Below, one piece after another: positions 1,759-54,054 of a DNA stretch of 64,000 nucleotides; position 1 is the first letter of the stretch, and every line of letters begins with the position of its first letter. A program made the translations under genes and the position numbers. Below the pieces are notes generated by a model, which was given only the letters and a program-made list of their open reading frames with translations, made no database searches and was not told the origin of the DNA. Source of the stretch: an uncultured Gammaproteobacteria bacterium (lineage in GTDB: Bacteria > Pseudomonadota > Gammaproteobacteria > Nitrosococcales > Methylophagaceae); NCBI GenBank assembly GCA_905479985.1, contig CAJQOM010000024.1, positions 1-64,000 on the forward strand, given 5' to 3'.

Positions 1759-2888
1759 ACCGCGACACCCTCCCTTTGGCGTTGCACCCAAGCATGGTGT
1801 ATTTTTTGTCGATTAAATAACAATACAAGAATCACAATCATCAACACATGCACCCACACACTACCAAACCAAAGTGGTAACACCCCTTTGGTAATCCATG
1901 CCCGCGTCACACCCAATAAATTACTATAAACAATATAAGTGAGAATAGCGGGTAGTAAACCCGCATAGCGCCCTTTCCTCGGGCCAGCATCCGCAAACAC
2001 CATAGCAAAAAAACATAAAACAACCGCCATAATCGGCGAGGCAAACCGCCATTGAATCTCTGCTAAATCTTTATCTTGTCCCCGTTCCCATAATTGACCC
2101 GTTGACAATGATTTATGACGCTCACGAGTTTGTTTTTCACCGCCTTTTTCAACCAATAAACTATGACTAGAAAACTCAGCAATGACATAGTCCTTATCAC
2201 CCGCTTGCCCTTCATAACGGTAACCGTTATCCAAAATCAAATATTTATTTCCGGTCACAGGATCAATATCAAACTGGCCCTGCTCTGCCCGAAAGACCAA
2301 CGGCCGAGCGCCTTTATGAATCTCAATAAACACATTTTCCATTTTCTGCTTATCGTTCGTCAATCCTTGAGAATAAAACGTCCAACTGCCATCGCGACTT
2401 TCCTTAAAACTACCTGCGACTAAGCCTGTAGTGTCCGCCGCAATTTTTGCTTTTTGCTCTAATTCATACCGGCCCGACAAAACATCCGGCACAATAACCA
2501 AAGACAATAAGGCCACAATCACCGCAACGACACCAGAAAACAAGCCAACATTACGCATCACTCGCAGACGCGGAATACCGCACGCCGCCATCACCGTCAG
2601 TTCATTGTCGGTATTCATTCGACCTAATGCCAACATCACAGCCAGAAAAGCCGCTATCGGTAATAATAACGATAATGCACCTAAAGAACTGTAGCCTAAT
2701 AAGGTAAAAATCACTTCACTGGGTATGCTTCCAATCGCAGCTTGTGCTAAGTAACGGGCAAATCGGGTCGCAACATAGATCAGCCATAACACACCAATCA
2801 CGCCCAATAGCGTTAAAGTAAACTCTTTAAGCAAGTAGCGATCAATAACTGAAAAAACAGTCGGAATAATTTTGCGATTAACAGGCAT
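1755..2888 (-). CDS. lptF: LPS export ABC transporter permease LptF
   Basis: IDRYLLKEFTLTLLGVIGVLWLI..; paired with lptG and divergent from pepA, a common gammaproteobacterial arrangement. Confidence 0.93.
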   Translation of the reverse strand: MPVNRKIIPTVFSVIDRYLLKEFTLTLLGVIGVLWLIYVATRFARYLAQAAIGSIPSEVIFTLLGYSSLGALSLLLPIAAFLAVMLALGRMNTDNELTVMAACGIPRLRVMRNVGLFSGVVAVIVALLSLVIVPDVLSGRYELEQKAKIAADTTGLVAGSFKESRDGSWTFYSQGLTNDKQKMENVFIEIHKGARPLVFRAEQGQFDIDPVTGNKYLILDNGYRYEGQAGDKDYVIAEFSSHSLLVEKGGEKQTRERHKSLSTGQLWERGQDKDLAEIQWRFASPIMAVVLCFFAMVFADAGPRKGRYAGLLPAILTYIVYSNLLGVTRAWITKGVLPLWFGSVWVHVLMIVILVLLFNRQKIHHAWVQRQREGVAV

Positions 2889-3050
2889 TATTTGGTGGTC
2901 TTCGTTACAATAGTGTCAGAGATTGAAGCAATTAAAGGGCTTCCCTTAAGTCTTTTACATTTACATCTAAATTTAAGCGTTGATGTCATAGCGCACTCAA
3001 TTACAGTTATTGTTTGCAGTCTAAATCATCTACGCACAGAGGAGAAATCA

Positions 3051-4544
3051 ATGCAGTATTTTGTCACAACCAACACAGCATCGTCAGAACAAACAGACTG
3101 TGTCGTCATTGCCATTTTTGAACAAGGTCAACTCAGCCCAAGTGCAGCCGATCTCAACAACAGTAGCAATGGACAAATACAACATTATATAGACCGAGGT
3201 GATATTACAGGCAAAATAGGTCAAACGCTATTACTCCAAGACCTAAACGGCATCACTAGTCCCCGTGTTTTACTCATCGGCTGTGGTGATAACACCGGTA
3301 TCAAAGAAAGCGATTACGCCACTATCATCACCAGCATGACCAAAATATTAGACAACTCTGCCGCCGCTAATGCCGCTGTCTACTTAACCGAAATCAATGT
3401 GAATGACCGCTCAGCACAATGGCTCGTCACCAATGCGATCACCACAGCAGAAACAAGCTTATATATGTACACCGCAACAAAAAGTGACACCAAACCAAAA
3501 GACAAGCCGATCGAATCACTTTCTTTCTTTGCAAACAAAGCTAACGCTGGACTAGAACAAGCCACGGCAAATGGTCTAGCCATTGCCAATGGCATGAATT
3601 TAGCCAAAGAATTAGGTGATCTTCCAGGTAATGTCTGTACACCAACTTACCTCGCAGAACAGGCCATTATCATTGGTCAACAATTTGACTCGGTAACCAC
3701 GACCATTCTCGACGAAGCTGAAATGGCTGAACTCGGCATGGGATCACTATTATCGGTCTCACGAGGCAGCCGCCAACCCGCTAAACTCATCACCATGAAC
3801 TACCAAGGTGCAGGCGATGAAAAACCTGTCGTCCTAGTCGGTAAAGGCCTGACCTTTGATGCCGGTGGTATCTCACTCAAGCCTGCCGGTGGCATGGATG
3901 AAATGAAATATGACATGTGCGGTAGTGCCAGTGTCTTTGGCACCATCATCGCCATTGCAGAATTAAATTTACCGATCAATGTCGTCGCCGTCGTCCCAAG
4001 CTCAGAAAACATGCCTGATGGTGATGCCAACAAACCCGGTGATATTGTCACCAGCATGGCCGGTAAAACTATCGAGATCCTAAATACCGACGCCGAGGGT
4101 CGCCTGATCCTCTGTGATGCACTCACCTACAGTGAACGCTTTGATCCCGCCATCGTCATCGATATTGCCACACTCACGGGCGCCATCATTGTCGCATTAG
4201 GCAGTAGAACCACCGGCCTGATGTCAAATGATCAAGATCTCGCTGATGACTTATTACAAGCCGGTCGTGATAGCGCCGATAAAGCATGGCAATTACCGTT
4301 ATGGGATGAATACCAAGAGCAACTTGATAGCAACTTTGCTGACATCGCCAATATTGGTGGTAAAGAAGCCGGCAGTGTCACCGCAGCGTGTTTCCTCTCT
4401 CGCTTCACTGAACACTACACATGGGCTCACCTTGATATCGCGGGTACGGCATGGAAAAGTGGCGGCAAAGCCAAGGGTGCCACCGGTCGTCCTGTACCAA
4501 TGTTAGTACAATATTTGTTAAACCGCATTGCCAATAAAGACTAA
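3051..4544 (+). CDS. pepA: Leucyl aminopeptidase PepA
   Basis: Motifs VGKGLTFDAGGISLKP and NTDAEGRLILCDALTY; SD ggaga upstream of ATG 3051, so the ORF start at 2892 is over-extended. Confidence 0.96.
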   Translation: MQYFVTTNTASSEQTDCVVIAIFEQGQLSPSAADLNNSSNGQIQHYIDRGDITGKIGQTLLLQDLNGITSPRVLLIGCGDNTGIKESDYATIITSMTKILDNSAAANAAVYLTEINVNDRSAQWLVTNAITTAETSLYMYTATKSDTKPKDKPIESLSFFANKANAGLEQATANGLAIANGMNLAKELGDLPGNVCTPTYLAEQAIIIGQQFDSVTTTILDEAEMAELGMGSLLSVSRGSRQPAKLITMNYQGAGDEKPVVLVGKGLTFDAGGISLKPAGGMDEMKYDMCGSASVFGTIIAIAELNLPINVVAVVPSSENMPDGDANKPGDIVTSMAGKTIEILNTDAEGRLILCDALTYSERFDPAIVIDIATLTGAIIVALGSRTTGLMSNDQDLADDLLQAGRDSADKAWQLPLWDEYQEQLDSNFADIANIGGKEAGSVTAACFLSRFTEHYTWAHLDIAGTAWKSGGKAKGATGRPVPMLVQYLLNRIANKD

Positions 4545-47058: not shown

Positions 47059-49410
47059 ATGTCCCGATGGTCATGGTACAAGCTTCTCACTGCCCTACTC
47101 TTCACCCTATATAGCTTATCTCTCCAAGCCGGTCAGACAGTTAATATTGCCGTCCTCTATGACGGACCAATCAAACGTGAAGTACTCAGCTTAGAACAAA
47201 TCAAGAAAGAAATAAACGACTTAAATAGCCGTGAATTTAACATCCGTTTCCCAGACAAATACACACGTCATGGCAATTGGAAAATGGATGATATTAGACA
47301 AAACTTAAACGCCTTATTGAATGATCCAAACGTCGACATTATTATTGCCAATGGTCTTCTATCGTCTCATCAAGCCGCGCTTATTGATAACTTAAAAAAA
47401 CCGGTTATTGCACCCGAAGTCGCCGATCGCATTCTACAAAACTTACCTTATGAAAATGGCGCCAGTGGCAAAAAAAATTACGTCTACATCAACGAAAACA
47501 AATTAGTCGGCGATGACTTACGCCGGTTCTCGCAACTCGTGGGCTTTAAACATTTATTAATTCCAGCTGATCATTTATTTCTAGAAGCCATACCTGAACT
47601 GCGGCTGACCACCCTAGAAATGCAAACTAAACTCGGCTTTAAAATCACCATGCTGCCAATTAATGACAATCTTATGGAAGTATTTGATGCCATGCCAGCA
47701 GGTATTGACGCCGCCTACATCCCGCCATTACAACGTTTCAGCATTGAGGGTTTTAAACAATTTAATCAAGGTTTTATCGAAAAACAAATTCCCACGTATT
47801 CCTTATTAGGTAGAGAAGAAGTCCAGATGGGCGTACTCGCAGCTTCAGGTGGTAGAGCATCCGATAATCAACGTTACACGCGACGCATTGCACTCTATGT
47901 CCAATCCATCTTATTAGGTGCCGACCCAGCCAAGCTCAAAGTCAATATGGAACAACCCCAAAAATTAGCCATCAATATGAAAACTGCCCAAGCCATCGGC
48001 TTTTCGCCAAGCTGGCCGTTTTTAGAAGAAGCAGATTTACTTTATCTCGAACAAACCAAATCACACACCACATCGATTACCCTTAACGACGCAATAGACC
48101 AAGCCATCAATAACAATTTAGGCCTACGTATAGCCCAAATTAATCCTGAATTATCTAAAGATAGTCTTGCATCCGCGCGTGCCGCCTTATTACCGCAACT
48201 CAATATCGGCCTAGGCACAACCCAACTCGATAGCGATACTGCACAATCAGGTCAAGTCGAACGCAGCAGTGATGCCAATTTAAATTTAAGCCAAAGCATT
48301 TATTCAGAGCGTTTATGGTCTAGTTATGACATTGCAGAGCTCAATTTACTATCCGAAGATATGGGGCTAAAAGCCAGCTTACTCGACACTATTAGCAGTA
48401 CCGCTAGCGCCTACTTAAACTTATTACAAACATTGGCATCCGAGAAAGTAAGACAATCTAATACCAAAGTCACCGAAACCAATTTAGAAGTCGCCCAAAA
48501 TCAGTTTAAATTGGGCAGTACTGACCGTTCCGCCGTTTTACGTTGGCAAAGTCAGTTAGCAACCGATAGACAAGATCTCTATCTAGCCACCGCCAGTCGA
48601 GAACAAGCCGAAACCAGCTTAAAACAGCAGCTCAATATCCCGCAATCGGACTCTATCTCCGTCACTGATGAAGGCATACGAAAGCTATTAGCCTTATTAA
48701 GTGAGCCCCGCTTTAAACGCTTTTTCGCTAACCCGAAGTTATTCAAAACATTCTCGGCGTTTGAAACGCAACGTGCTATCGAAAATGCCCCTGAGTTACA
48801 GCAGCTAGATTACGCCATCGATGCAAATGAACGCCAACTAAGCGCAGCAAAACGGTCTTATTACCTCCCGGATGTTGACCTGAATGCATCTGTAGGGCAA
48901 AACCTTAACCGTAGTGGCATCAACAGCAATAACAACAATCTCAACGACGACAACTGGTCCGTCACACTACAAGCAACTTTACCGCTATTCACTGGTGGAG
49001 AACGCAAATCTAACATCTCAAGTGCCCGCCACACCCTCACCCAAAACACCTACCAAAAACAAAACACCCAACAACAAATTGAAGTCCGGGTTACTAACGC
49101 ACTACAAAGTGCTGGCGGCAGTTATCCTGCAATCAGATTGTCTGCCAATGCCGAAGCCTCAGCGAAAGAAAATTTAAGCCTTGTCAGCCAGACCTATTCA
49201 CAAGGCACCATTTCAATTACTGAGCTAATCGATGCTCAAAACAATGCCCTACAAGCTCAGCTCAATGCCGTTAATGCACAATATCGTTTTATGCTCGACT
49301 GGATAGAAATCCAACGGTCGATTGCAAACTTCGATTTATTACTCACTCCCAATGGCTTTGATCACTGGTATGAATTATTAGATGCCTACTACCAACAGCG
49401 AAATAAATAA
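47059..49410 (+). CDS. Outer-membrane efflux channel (TolC-like) fused to an N-terminal ABC substrate-binding-protein-like domain
   Basis: Signal peptide; residues about 27-333 end in ILLGADPAKLKVNMEQPQKLAINMKTAQAIGFSPSW (resembling the end of ABC_sub_bind proteins); from about residue 340, ITLNDAIDQAINNNLGLRIAQIN.. and repeated TolC-type helices. Confidence 0.85.
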   Translation: MSRWSWYKLLTALLFTLYSLSLQAGQTVNIAVLYDGPIKREVLSLEQIKKEINDLNSREFNIRFPDKYTRHGNWKMDDIRQNLNALLNDPNVDIIIANGLLSSHQAALIDNLKKPVIAPEVADRILQNLPYENGASGKKNYVYINENKLVGDDLRRFSQLVGFKHLLIPADHLFLEAIPELRLTTLEMQTKLGFKITMLPINDNLMEVFDAMPAGIDAAYIPPLQRFSIEGFKQFNQGFIEKQIPTYSLLGREEVQMGVLAASGGRASDNQRYTRRIALYVQSILLGADPAKLKVNMEQPQKLAINMKTAQAIGFSPSWPFLEEADLLYLEQTKSHTTSITLNDAIDQAINNNLGLRIAQINPELSKDSLASARAALLPQLNIGLGTTQLDSDTAQSGQVERSSDANLNLSQSIYSERLWSSYDIAELNLLSEDMGLKASLLDTISSTASAYLNLLQTLASEKVRQSNTKVTETNLEVAQNQFKLGSTDRSAVLRWQSQLATDRQDLYLATASREQAETSLKQQLNIPQSDSISVTDEGIRKLLALLSEPRFKRFFANPKLFKTFSAFETQRAIENAPELQQLDYAIDANERQLSAAKRSYYLPDVDLNASVGQNLNRSGINSNNNNLNDDNWSVTLQATLPLFTGGERKSNISSARHTLTQNTYQKQNTQQQIEVRVTNALQSAGGSYPAIRLSANAEASAKENLSLVSQTYSQGTISITELIDAQNNALQAQLNAVNAQYRFMLDWIEIQRSIANFDLLLTPNGFDHWYELLDAYYQQRNK

Positions 49411-49412
49411 TC

Positions 49413-50492
49413 ATGACTAATAAACTCATCTATCCACTACTCGCATTGCTATTAACCGCATGTAGCTCAGAAAGTGACCAAGCCCAAATAACAGAGAAAC
49501 CCATCCGCCCTGTTCGCTTTATCACCATCGAACAGCAACAAGATGGCAACACGCGGACATTCTCTGGCAGTGCCCAATCCAGTGAAGAATCCAAACTCAG
49601 CTTTCGTGTTGCCGGCACCATTAATAAAATTCATGTTGATATCGGTCAACCACTCAAAAAAGGCCAAGTCATCGCCGAACTTGATCCATCTCAATACCTC
49701 ATACAGGCACAACAATCGAGAGCTAACCTTGCCCAAGCCCGAGCGAACCAACGTAATGCCGAAGCCAATTTCGAACGCGTTAAAAACCTATATGAAACTA
49801 ACAGCACCTCGCGTAATGAACTTGACTCAGCACGGGCTAATGCTGAATCCACCCGAGCCCAGGCTAATGCTAACCGACAAGCATTAGATCTGTCGCTACT
49901 TAACGTCAATTACACCAAATTAAAAGCCACAACAGACTGCAACGTCGCCACCAAAGAAACAGAAATCAACGAATTTGTGAGTTCCGGCCAAACTGTGGTG
50001 AATGTCACTTGTGGTAAAGCAATAGAAGTGCAACTTGCCGTACCCGAAAGCAGCATCGCCTTAATTGAAGCTAATATGCCAGCGACGGTCAGCTTTAGTG
50101 CCTTACCTAACCAACACTTTGACGCCAAAGTATCAGAAGTCGGCATCGCATCTAATGGCGGAGCAACTTACCCTGTCACTGTGATCCTAGACCAGCAACC
50201 TAACAACTTACGCCCAGGTTTAGCAGCTGAAGTCAGCTTTAACTTTAAACAAAAAGGACAACATCTCGTTGTACCATCTGCTTCGGTGTCAGAAGATACG
50301 CAAGGCCGTTATGTATATACCTTACACCCGGCTGATAAGCCCGGTACCGCGATCATAAAACGGCAAGCCGTCACCATTGGCGAACTCACACCAAATGGCT
50401 TAGAAATCACTCAAGGCTTAAGCATCAACGATCGGGTTGTCACTGCCGGCGTCAATATTGTGCGTGATGGTTTAACGGTGCATGCAGAATAA
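49413..50492 (+). CDS. RND efflux periplasmic adaptor (MFP/HlyD-type lipoprotein)
   Basis: Lipobox LLTACSS; RPVRFITIE..FSGSAQSSEESKLSFRVAGTINKIHVDIGQPLKKGQVIAELDPSQY. Confidence 0.94.
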   Translation: MTNKLIYPLLALLLTACSSESDQAQITEKPIRPVRFITIEQQQDGNTRTFSGSAQSSEESKLSFRVAGTINKIHVDIGQPLKKGQVIAELDPSQYLIQAQQSRANLAQARANQRNAEANFERVKNLYETNSTSRNELDSARANAESTRAQANANRQALDLSLLNVNYTKLKATTDCNVATKETEINEFVSSGQTVVNVTCGKAIEVQLAVPESSIALIEANMPATVSFSALPNQHFDAKVSEVGIASNGGATYPVTVILDQQPNNLRPGLAAEVSFNFKQKGQHLVVPSASVSEDTQGRYVYTLHPADKPGTAIIKRQAVTIGELTPNGLEITQGLSINDRVVTAGVNIVRDGLTVHAE

Positions 50493-50494
50493 TC

Positions 50495-53400
50495 ATGAGC
50501 TTAACTAACATCGCCTTTCGTTATAACCGCATTGTCATCATGCTGATCATCATTCTATTATTCAGCGGTCTACTTGCATATAAAAGCTTACCCAAAGCAC
50601 AAGATCCTGGCTTTACTATTCGCACCGTCGTTATCATCACCCGATTGCCTGGCGCCAGTCCAGAACGGATGGAATTATTAGTCACTGACAAAATAGAAAA
50701 GAAAGTACAAGAAATGCCCGAGGTCGACAATATCACCAGCGAATCTCGCACGGGTATTTCGATCATTAACGTCAATTTCAAAGAATCATATAAAATCATG
50801 CGGCCCATTTTTGATGACCTTCGACGTAAAGTTGAAGACATCACGAACGACTTACCAAAAGGTATCAGTGGCCCCAATATCAACGATGAATTTGGCGATG
50901 TCTTTGGCAGCGTTTATAGCTTAAAAGGCGAGGACTTTAGTTACGCTGAGCTCAAAACCATTGCTGATGATATTAGAGACCGACTTTTAAAATTAGATGA
51001 TATCGCCAAAGTCGACCTCCATGGCGAACAGGATGAAGTCATCTTCGTTGAATATAACAATGCACGCTTGAATGAACTCGGCATCTCACCGCAGCAACTT
51101 TCTAGCATGTTAAGTTCCGCTAATATCTTATCGTCAGGCGGTAATATTCTGACCGGAAGAGAACGTATTGTCCTTGAACCTACAGGCAATTATGAAAGCT
51201 TAGAACAACTTAGAAACACCGTGATTGAATTACCCAATAGCGATGTCGTTTACCTAGGTGAAATTGCCACCATTTACCGTGATTACACTGATCCACCGAG
51301 TAGTGTCAGTCGTAGTAACGGAGAACGCACATTGGCCATTGCCATCTCAATGCGAGAAGGCGGCGACATCCTATCCTTGGGTCAACAGCTTGATCACCTT
51401 ATGCCTATCATTCAAGCCAACTACCCTTGGGGTATTGAAATAGAAAAAGTCTGGTTTCAAGCTGATATTGTCGAAACCAATATCGATAACTTCACCCTCA
51501 ACCTGATCCAGGCTGTCGCTATCGTCACCATTATCATGCTGTTCTTCTTAGGGTTAAAAGTCGGCTTAGTCGTCGCAAGCTTAATTCCAGCAGCCATGAT
51601 TATTTCATTCTATTTTATGCAATTATTTGGCATTACCATTAACCAAATATCATTAGCAGCCTTAATCATTTCACTTGGTTTATTGGTCGATAATGCCATT
51701 GTCATGGTCGAATCAATACTCGTTCGACGCGATCAAGGCAGCACAGCTATCGACGCTGCCATCGAATCCGGTAAAGAATTGTTCACCCCACTCCTTATCT
51801 CATCGCTCACCACCAGTGCTGCCTTTATGCCGATAGGGTTAGCTGAATCCAGTGTCGGTGAATACACCGGAGATATTTTCTACGTTGTCACCATTACCCT
51901 ATTAATATCATGGGCCTTAGCCATGACAATGATTCCTTTACTGAGCAGTTGGGCATTAGCCAATAGACAGCCTAGTATAAAAATGCAGGGACAAGATGAA
52001 TTCTCAAGCATCGGTTATCGAATCTATCGCTCTTTATTATTACCCATCCTTCGAAATAAACTATTATTTTGTCTTTTCATCATTATCCTCTTTTTTAGTG
52101 CCATTCAAGGCCTGAACTATGTCCGTGTTGCCTTTATAGAACCGTCTGAAGATCCTCTCTTTACAGGCACTTTCGAAATGCCACTCGGCACCTCGATAGA
52201 AACCAGCCAACAGATCATGACTGACATTGACCAGTTTATTCATGAACAGTACTATCAACCTAAAGACGGTGAACCTTTAATTAGCAATTGGCTTACCCAC
52301 ATTGGCAATGGTGGGCCACGCATCGCTCTGACTCTCAGCCCCCCTAACGCCAACCCAGCTAACTCTTTTTTAGTCGCCAATACCATCAGCGGCCAAGATG
52401 TAGAAACTACCATTGCCGGCATTCAAGCCTTTACTACACAAAATTATCCAGATTTAGGTGTCAAACTTAGTCGCTTAGAAAATGGCCCCCCTGTCGGTTA
52501 CCCGATTCAAGTCCGTCTATCTGGCCCAGACTTTGATACCTTGTATCAACTTTCTGATCAAATCACAGCCAAGCTCTCTGATAATAAGGCCATCCTTTCG
52601 GTGAAAAACACTTGGGGTAAAAAAACCAAAAAATTATTAGTAACGGTCGATCAGCAGCGCGCATTAAAGGCCGGCATCACCAGTGACGATGTTGCCTATT
52701 CACTTAAAGCCAGTCTCAGTGGCATCGAAATGACCGAATATAGAGAAGATGACAAACTTATTCCTATTACACTTCGCTCTATTGCAGCTGATCGGCAAGA
52801 TATTCAAAAACTCGATGGCACCAGCATCTACTCACAAAGCACCGGACAATCTGTCCCACTCAAACAAGTTGCTGATGTCAGCATGGTCTTCGAGCCGGGC
52901 ATTATCGAGCGAAGAGATAGAACACGAACTATCACCCTAAAAGCCCTATTGATGCCTAATACAACAGCAACAGAGGTCAACAAAGAGCTCATCCCATGGC
53001 TAGAACAAGTCGCTGTAGATTGGCCCACTGATCACCATTATGAACTCGGCGGCGAAGCAGAAGACTCAGGTGATGCTAATGCCTCCATCGTAGCTAAACT
53101 CCCGATAGCCGCTATGATTATCTTGCTGTTACTTGTTGGTCAATTTAACTCTATCAGGCGACCACTCATTATTCTCACCACCATCCCGCTCGGCGTTATT
53201 GGCGTCGTAATTGGGCTCCTCGTAGCCAACTCTTCTTTTGGATTTTTCACTATCTTAGGTATTTTATCGCTTGCTGGCATCATCATTAATAATGCCATTG
53301 TCTTAATCGACCGTATTAAAATTGAAATAGAACAATTAGGTAAGTCAGCCAATACGGCGGTGATTGCAGCCTGCCAACAACGGCTTAGACCCATTCTACT

Positions 53401-53578
53401 AACTACAGCAACCACCGTACTGGGCATGATGCCCCTGTGGTGGGGCGGCACAGCAATGTTTAGACCTATGGCTATCTCAATTATCTTTGGTCTCGCTTTT
53501 GCTACGGTTATTACCCTTTTCTTAGTCCCCGTTTTATATGGCCTATTCTTCAAAGTGAATTTCAGCGACACAAAATAA
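50495..53578 (+). CDS. RND efflux permease (AcrB-like)
   Basis: 1027 aa; PKAQDPGFTIRTVVIITRLPGASPERMELLVTDKIE; GLLVDNAIVMVES; C-terminal TM bundle. Confidence 0.95.
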   Translation: MSLTNIAFRYNRIVIMLIIILLFSGLLAYKSLPKAQDPGFTIRTVVIITRLPGASPERMELLVTDKIEKKVQEMPEVDNITSESRTGISIINVNFKESYKIMRPIFDDLRRKVEDITNDLPKGISGPNINDEFGDVFGSVYSLKGEDFSYAELKTIADDIRDRLLKLDDIAKVDLHGEQDEVIFVEYNNARLNELGISPQQLSSMLSSANILSSGGNILTGRERIVLEPTGNYESLEQLRNTVIELPNSDVVYLGEIATIYRDYTDPPSSVSRSNGERTLAIAISMREGGDILSLGQQLDHLMPIIQANYPWGIEIEKVWFQADIVETNIDNFTLNLIQAVAIVTIIMLFFLGLKVGLVVASLIPAAMIISFYFMQLFGITINQISLAALIISLGLLVDNAIVMVESILVRRDQGSTAIDAAIESGKELFTPLLISSLTTSAAFMPIGLAESSVGEYTGDIFYVVTITLLISWALAMTMIPLLSSWALANRQPSIKMQGQDEFSSIGYRIYRSLLLPILRNKLLFCLFIIILFFSAIQGLNYVRVAFIEPSEDPLFTGTFEMPLGTSIETSQQIMTDIDQFIHEQYYQPKDGEPLISNWLTHIGNGGPRIALTLSPPNANPANSFLVANTISGQDVETTIAGIQAFTTQNYPDLGVKLSRLENGPPVGYPIQVRLSGPDFDTLYQLSDQITAKLSDNKAILSVKNTWGKKTKKLLVTVDQQRALKAGITSDDVAYSLKASLSGIEMTEYREDDKLIPITLRSIAADRQDIQKLDGTSIYSQSTGQSVPLKQVADVSMVFEPGIIERRDRTRTITLKALLMPNTTATEVNKELIPWLEQVAVDWPTDHHYELGGEAEDSGDANASIVAKLPIAAMIILLLLVGQFNSIRRPLIILTTIPLGVIGVVIGLLVANSSFGFFTILGILSLAGIIINNAIVLIDRIKIEIEQLGKSANTAVIAACQQRLRPILLTTATTVLGMMPLWWGGTAMFRPMAISIIFGLAFATVITLFLVPVLYGLFFKVNFSDTK

Positions 53579-53634: not shown

Positions 53635-54054
53635 ATGACACCATTTGAAACAGCAACCGCCTTTTTCCATGCTTGTGAAACCCTCAAAGGCTGGGAAGGC
53701 TGCCAGCAATACGCTACTGTGAATGCCACTTTCTCTGCTCAGTCAGAGCCCTTAGCTAAAATCACAACACTACAAGAATACACAGAATGGATGAAAGGGT
53801 TTGGCTCAACCACGACCATCGGTGCAACTTACGATTTACATAGCGCTAGTTACGATGAGAACACTCGAACTGCTGTCTTCTTTGCAACGTACAATGGCAC
53901 CCATAATGGTGAAGGTGGCCCAGTCCCCCCGACCAACAAAACCACGCATTCAGATTACGTTTATATCCTGGTCATGAACAATAAAGGTTTAATAGAACGC
54001 ATGGTTAAGGTCTGGAACGCACCTTGGGCAATGAGAGAGCTCGGCTGGTTATAA
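53635..54054 (+). CDS. SnoaL/NTF2-like protein
   Basis: TATAFFHACETLKGWEGCQQYATVNATFSAQ..HSDYVYILVMNNKGLIERMVKVWNAPWAMRELGW. Confidence 0.8.
   Translation: MTPFETATAFFHACETLKGWEGCQQYATVNATFSAQSEPLAKITTLQEYTEWMKGFGSTTTIGATYDLHSASYDENTRTAVFFATYNGTHNGEGGPVPPTNKTTHSDYVYILVMNNKGLIERMVKVWNAPWAMRELGWL

Follow-up and report, generated by a model that had tools for sequence, protein, structure and literature searches.

The described proteins that lie closest to the locus reported here come from two sources. The first is the ABC_sub_bind group of class I substrate-binding proteins, which includes TrpX SP1069 (3lft), VC_1101 (3lkv) and CD0873 (6hni); the ligands of CD0873, VC_1101 and SP1069 are Tyr, Phe and Trp (PMC6816091). 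The second is the group of TolC- and OpmH-type outer membrane factors (OMFs), proteins of about 450 amino acids (usually 420 to 500) that carry two OEP repeats (PF02321) and are encoded in operons with an adaptor and a pump. Helix H1 of TolC is assigned to the equatorial domain (PMC8277102). In E. coli, the separate lipoprotein YbjP attaches to TolC close to its equatorial domain, where a contact with peptidoglycan has been proposed and where YbjP shows no signalling role, and TolC opens at its lower coiled coil rather than at the equator (PMC13082787).

The window (the whole stretch of 64,000 nucleotides that was analyzed) carries an operon in which these two kinds of protein are joined in one gene, with the following features.

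47059 to 49410, plus strand: SBD-OMF fusion gene, 783 amino acids, comprising a signal peptide, a class I substrate-binding domain (SBD), a linker and a TolC-type OMF
47059 to 47136, plus strand: signal peptide region, residues 1-26, with a helix at 3-21 in the full-length AlphaFold model
47137 to 48042, plus strand: class I (ABC_sub_bind) substrate-binding-like domain, residues 27-328, from Pfam, AlphaFold, Foldseek and PDB profile matches
48043 to 48078, plus strand: linker, residues 329-340, from the family alignment
48079 to 49323, plus strand: TolC-type OMF body, residues 341-755, two OEP repeats
48634 to 48789, plus strand: equatorial H4-H5 (L1) segment, residues 526-577, a candidate docking platform for the SBD
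49413 to 50492, plus strand: RND-type periplasmic adaptor, 359 amino acids, TIGR01730 at 221.8 bits (cut-off 94.9)
50495 to 53578, plus strand: RND permease, 1027 amino acids, closest among solved structures to MexK and then to 6vej

The fusion gene has no internal stops and stays in frame over all 783 codons, and gaps of 2 nucleotides separate it from the adaptor gene and the adaptor gene from the permease gene, as the first-pass annotation had noted. The permease aligns with MexK at 621 bits and with 6vej, which we take to be TriC, at 587 bits. With its adaptor and RND permease genes, the operon therefore has the layout of a tripartite RND pump of the MexK/TriC type, with efflux as its predicted function, and it differs from the MexJK and TriABC systems by having its own SBD-bearing OMF gene. 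Around the Asp pair of the RND proton relay MexK reads LLVDDAI, and the alignment places LLVDNAI of the window permease opposite it. The adaptor has an apparent lipobox, LTAC, as judged by eye. GC content is equal in the operon (43.8%) and in the window (43.7%). An open reading frame of 139 amino acids at 53635 to 54054, just 3′ of the permease gene, has no Pfam match; it probably lies outside the operon, because a homologue is located near the hydrolase gene in another genome (G010) that lacks the operon.

Several comparisons establish that the additional 300 or so N-terminal residues adopt a binding-protein fold. Pfam assigns residues 76-314 to ABC_sub_bind (PF04392) at 27.2 bits, just above the gathering cut-off of 25.9, and recognizes two OEP repeats in the same protein (8.2e-50). 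Only four of 21 relatives reach an E value of 0.001 with PF04392, and thus the SBD family is divergent. An AlphaFold model of residues 25-333, built from 58 sequences, has a pLDDT of 94.9 and a pTM of 0.91 and contains two intact lobes. Foldseek searches with this model return 3lft, 3lkv, 6hnj and 6hni as the best matches, at E values of about 1e-14 and with TM scores of 0.71-0.75 for 3lft, 3lkv and 6hni, and profiles made from family alignments recover 3lkv from the PDB at 1.8e-8 and 7.8e-9. The full-length monomer model (pLDDT 88.7) gives two sets of matches, one to TolC, OprM and CusC and the other to these binding proteins. The domain thus has the two-lobed class I fold, in agreement with the first-pass annotation, which had proposed a periplasmic-binding-protein-like N-terminal domain from the sequence and had placed its boundaries and its ABC_sub_bind-like ending correctly. 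Unlike TrpX SP1069, VC_1101 and CD0873, with which it has this fold in common, the window SBD is fused to an exit duct, and no importer permease and ATPase genes were found near it, nor do importer genes recur as a fixed neighbor at the other family loci.

The OMF body has the TolC fold (TM score about 0.8 when normalized by target) and is closest to TolC itself. Window residue 347 is aligned to residue 8 of mature TolC, and therefore the SBD joins the channel at the TolC N-terminus, at about mature residue 1. The linker that makes this connection is of identical length in all 47 relatives aligned, whose linkers the window protein exceeds by one residue. Moreover, the equatorial H4-H5 segment spans 51-53 residues in each of 61 family members versus 32-35 in five ordinary OMFs (four others from the window genome and one neighboring OMF), such that the equatorial loop of every fused protein carries about 18 extra residues. 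When a profile of this insertion was searched against 369 genomes, the 20 fused proteins of this sample were matched, as is expected because the profile was built from fused proteins. The informative result is that unfused OMFs gave no strong match; three matched weakly (E values of 8e-5 to 9e-4), and for two of these the match lies outside the insertion. No lipobox is present in any of the 61 family members checked. The window gene shows all the traits that define the family, namely the SBD, the constant-length linker and the equatorial insertion.

From the attachment point, the constancy of the linker and an equatorial insertion private to the family, three SBDs are suggested to dock around the equator of the duct, a predicted trimer, and we consider this arrangement probable. 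The first-pass annotation had placed the domain beside the adaptor and permease, which is doubtful given that both the attachment and the insertion map to the equatorial belt, far from the permease. In the YbjP-TolC complex, too, an additional periplasmic component is found at or close to this level, although YbjP is a separate lipoprotein and the SBD is covalently fused and non-lipidated.

The same two-domain architecture was found well beyond the window. Among 369 genomes sampled from the class Gammaproteobacteria, 19 others encode the full fusion. A scan of a larger collection yielded 68 loci, and in 65 of these the SBD and the OMF lie in a single open frame, some of them cut at contig ends; the exceptions are a contig that ends after the SBD (L074), a locus with two frames (L101) and a locus in which no OMF was found (L120). 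Selection of these loci relied on the motif [KR][LM][TAS]INMxTA[RQ], which biases the apparent conservation of residues 303-311 in alignments A5 and A6, and statements on invariant residues therefore rest on alignment A2 where possible. The same scan with the single window protein as query gave no matches, and no SBD-OMF was found on viral contigs. The fusion is present in Pseudomonadota, Thermodesulfobacteriota, Acidobacteriota, Nitrospirota, Gemmatimonadota, Myxococcota, Nitrospinota, Latescibacterota, Dadabacteria and Riflebacteria (the last two assigned from record titles), an overall spread of about ten phyla. A plasmid of Sulfuricurvum kujiense (Campylobacterota) also encodes a fusion, of 803 amino acids, annotated merely as ‘ABC transporter substrate binding protein’. 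When 399 genomes were sampled evenly from the phylum of the window, only the window's own genome carried the fusion and the others showed just standalone binding proteins, and thus the fusion is sparse. Because its distribution is sparse but wide, the fusion is probably old, with transfer as a possible contributor.

The first-pass annotation knew of no characterized pump with this architecture, and we likewise found no description of it in the open-access full-text literature, although absence there is not proof. The accessible text of a Chem Rev review of tripartite pumps mentions neither ‘periplasmic binding protein’ nor ‘substrate-binding protein’. These proteins form a conserved, uncharacterized family of TolC/OpmH-like ducts in which each protomer carries an N-terminal class I SBD. 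We regard the architecture, its conservation and its association with the duct as solid.

Members of the family occur in four operon layouts. The gene order SBD-OMF, adaptor, RND is that of the window, and the second layout is adaptor, RND, SBD-OMF. In the remaining two the pump is an ABC exporter, with the orders adaptor, RbbA-type ATPase, ABC permease, SBD-OMF and SBD-OMF, adaptor, RbbA, permease. Most loci have an RND pump like that of the window, whereas others have exporters of the RbbA/YhiH type, as annotated in S. kujiense, which comprise a HlyD-type adaptor, an RbbA-like ATPase and an ABC permease. Two of the layouts correspond to one well supported clade each, and the partner type changes four times on the tree. 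Because the SBD is kept with either RND or RbbA-type ABC partners, it belongs to the duct and not to one pump. No general recurrent neighbors other than the pump genes were evident at the collection loci, and a neighborhood free of transporter genes occurs in one case (L031 and L058, which are on the same contig). Genes for a Mla-like ABC transporter (including an MlaD-like protein and an ABC ATPase, identified by eye) adjoin the SBD-OMF operon at L030 (12837 to 16000) and also at L059 and L069. At L119 (2 to 7371), genes for a separate adaptor, an RND protein and an ordinary OMF of 464 amino acids come after the end of an SBD-OMF gene, which places two ducts side by side.

The histories of the two halves agree. 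Trees made separately from the SBD and the OMF recover the same two operon-layout clades and have 27 of 56 bipartitions in common, and pairwise distances in the two halves correlate at 0.906, versus a maximum of 0.23 among 2000 permutations. These sequence comparisons show that the two halves have been inherited jointly from an old fusion. Within the window's own genus, the SBD was found in one other species beside the same neighboring gene and with 83% identity, on a contig that ends inside the gene. Three further genomes of the genus (G011, G018 and G022, at loci L139, L140 and L141) lack the operon and have a gap of about 230-280 bp between the hydrolase and DUF2130 genes. A fourth (G012, contig 14, L137) retains at this site a broken 3′ remnant of the RND gene at 2520 to 3607, with the SBD-OMF and adaptor genes gone. 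This locus is a decaying copy of the operon, and because it retains the broken 3′ part, at least one loss of the operon has occurred in the genus.

Whether the SBD binds a ligand is addressed by the residues of its cleft. The positions of the aromatic amino acid site were taken from PMC6816091 and placed on the family alignment. Thr114, Asp238 and Asn239 (CD0873 numbering), which are constant in CD0873, VC_1101 and SP1069 and are likely to contact the ligand backbone, are replaced in the SBD-OMF family, and the side-chain selector positions 263 and 279 are Gly/Asp and variable. An aromatic amino acid ligand, as might be proposed by homology, is therefore rejected for the canonical site. D35, G99 and D123 are strongly conserved, and probably face the cleft because they follow N-lobe strands. 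Taken together, the cleft-side loops do not exceed the remainder of the domain in conservation, as evident by the fact that 3538 of 5000 circular shifts score as high, and there is no statistical excess within clades either (fractions of 0.16-0.73 of shifts as high). Motifs in the cleft are nevertheless consistent within clades (PPLLRF, DGxDH with EPR, and TDLARL), a hint in the alignments that ligands may be clade-specific. This leaves two options, a separate ligand for each clade or a cleft that is not used.

The best reading of these data, which we hold tentatively, is that the SBD docks on the duct and, as a ligand-responsive module, regulates it. Three SBDs would sit in the periplasm on the exterior of the duct at the level of the equator. 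Less certain than this docking is that the two-lobed domain would open and close on a small periplasmic ligand and thereby control the duct, where the step affected might be docking of the duct to the adaptor, opening of the duct or its stability, and where the presence of ligand would engage the pump. Such a ligand probably differs between clades, and canonical binding of an alpha-amino acid is improbable. The fold, the fusion, the joint inheritance, the constant linker, the insertion, the exchangeable pumps, the YbjP precedent and the cleft motifs all speak for a ligand-responsive module. However, the cleft is not especially conserved, and a direct mechanical link from the equator to the lower coiled coil, where TolC opens, is not obvious. 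The more specific proposal of a ligand-gated duct, in which three equatorial Venus-flytrap domains detect a small molecule in the periplasm and switch the assembly or opening of pumps driven by RND or ABC transporters, is possible but somewhat doubtful.

A less likely but live alternative is that the SBD has lost ligand binding and now forms a structural ring that stabilizes or places the duct, for example relative to peptidoglycan or the outer membrane, or that aids its assembly. Such a scaffold would be consistent with the loss of the aromatic amino acid site residues, with cleft conservation no higher than elsewhere, and with a constant linker that co-occurs with an equatorial insertion; the peptidoglycan contact proposed for the TolC equator and the binding of YbjP there, with no signalling role shown, also fit (PMC13082787). 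Against a scaffold stand the two intact lobes of the high-confidence model, the conservation of the N-lobe residues D35, G99 and D123 on its cleft side, and cleft motifs that are consistent by clade.

Capture, as the first-pass annotation had suggested, is also a live alternative, although an unlikely one: the SBD would bind the substrate of efflux while it is in the periplasm and hand it to the pump, in the manner of a built-in CusF. The binding-protein fold and the nearly constant adjacency of adaptor and pump genes would fit such a role, but the N-terminal attachment and the insertion put the SBD at the equator, and in the AcrAB-TolC geometry the RND entry sites are far from this position. 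Hand-over to an RND pump is made less likely still by those relatives that have exchanged it for an unrelated RbbA-type ABC exporter and kept the SBD.

An improbable alternative is that the SBD serves a signalling or uptake system and is merely parked on the duct. A standalone ABC_sub_bind relative does adjoin a histidine kinase gene (L052), and on a Nitratidesulfovibrio plasmid (L004, 7590 to 11856) another precedes a 1012-amino-acid protein that combines an MFS domain with a long N-terminal part; however, kinase or importer genes do not recur as fixed neighbors of the fused genes.

Finally, a frameshift or an assembly fusion, which the first-pass annotation had named as a way for its claim to fail, and likewise a chance fusion or profile match, are ruled out for practical purposes by the high-confidence fold and by intact fusions at more than 60 loci from about ten phyla, despite two aberrant loci from metagenome-assembled genomes (MAGs) in which the SBD and OMF halves lie in different frames (L101, 9923 to 12171, probably a MAG frameshift) or the SBD runs into RND sequence (L032, 10445 to 12030, probably a deletion or misassembly).

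That two unrelated pump types share an SBD-bearing duct suggests that some efflux ducts may themselves sense or handle a small molecule. The family offers testable residues and cultured hosts, among them Desulfuromusa kysingii, Sulfuricurvum kujiense and Desulfosarcina alkanivorans. A widespread family of channels with an SBD of their own, retained when the type of pump changed, would imply an ability of the exit duct to sense or select.
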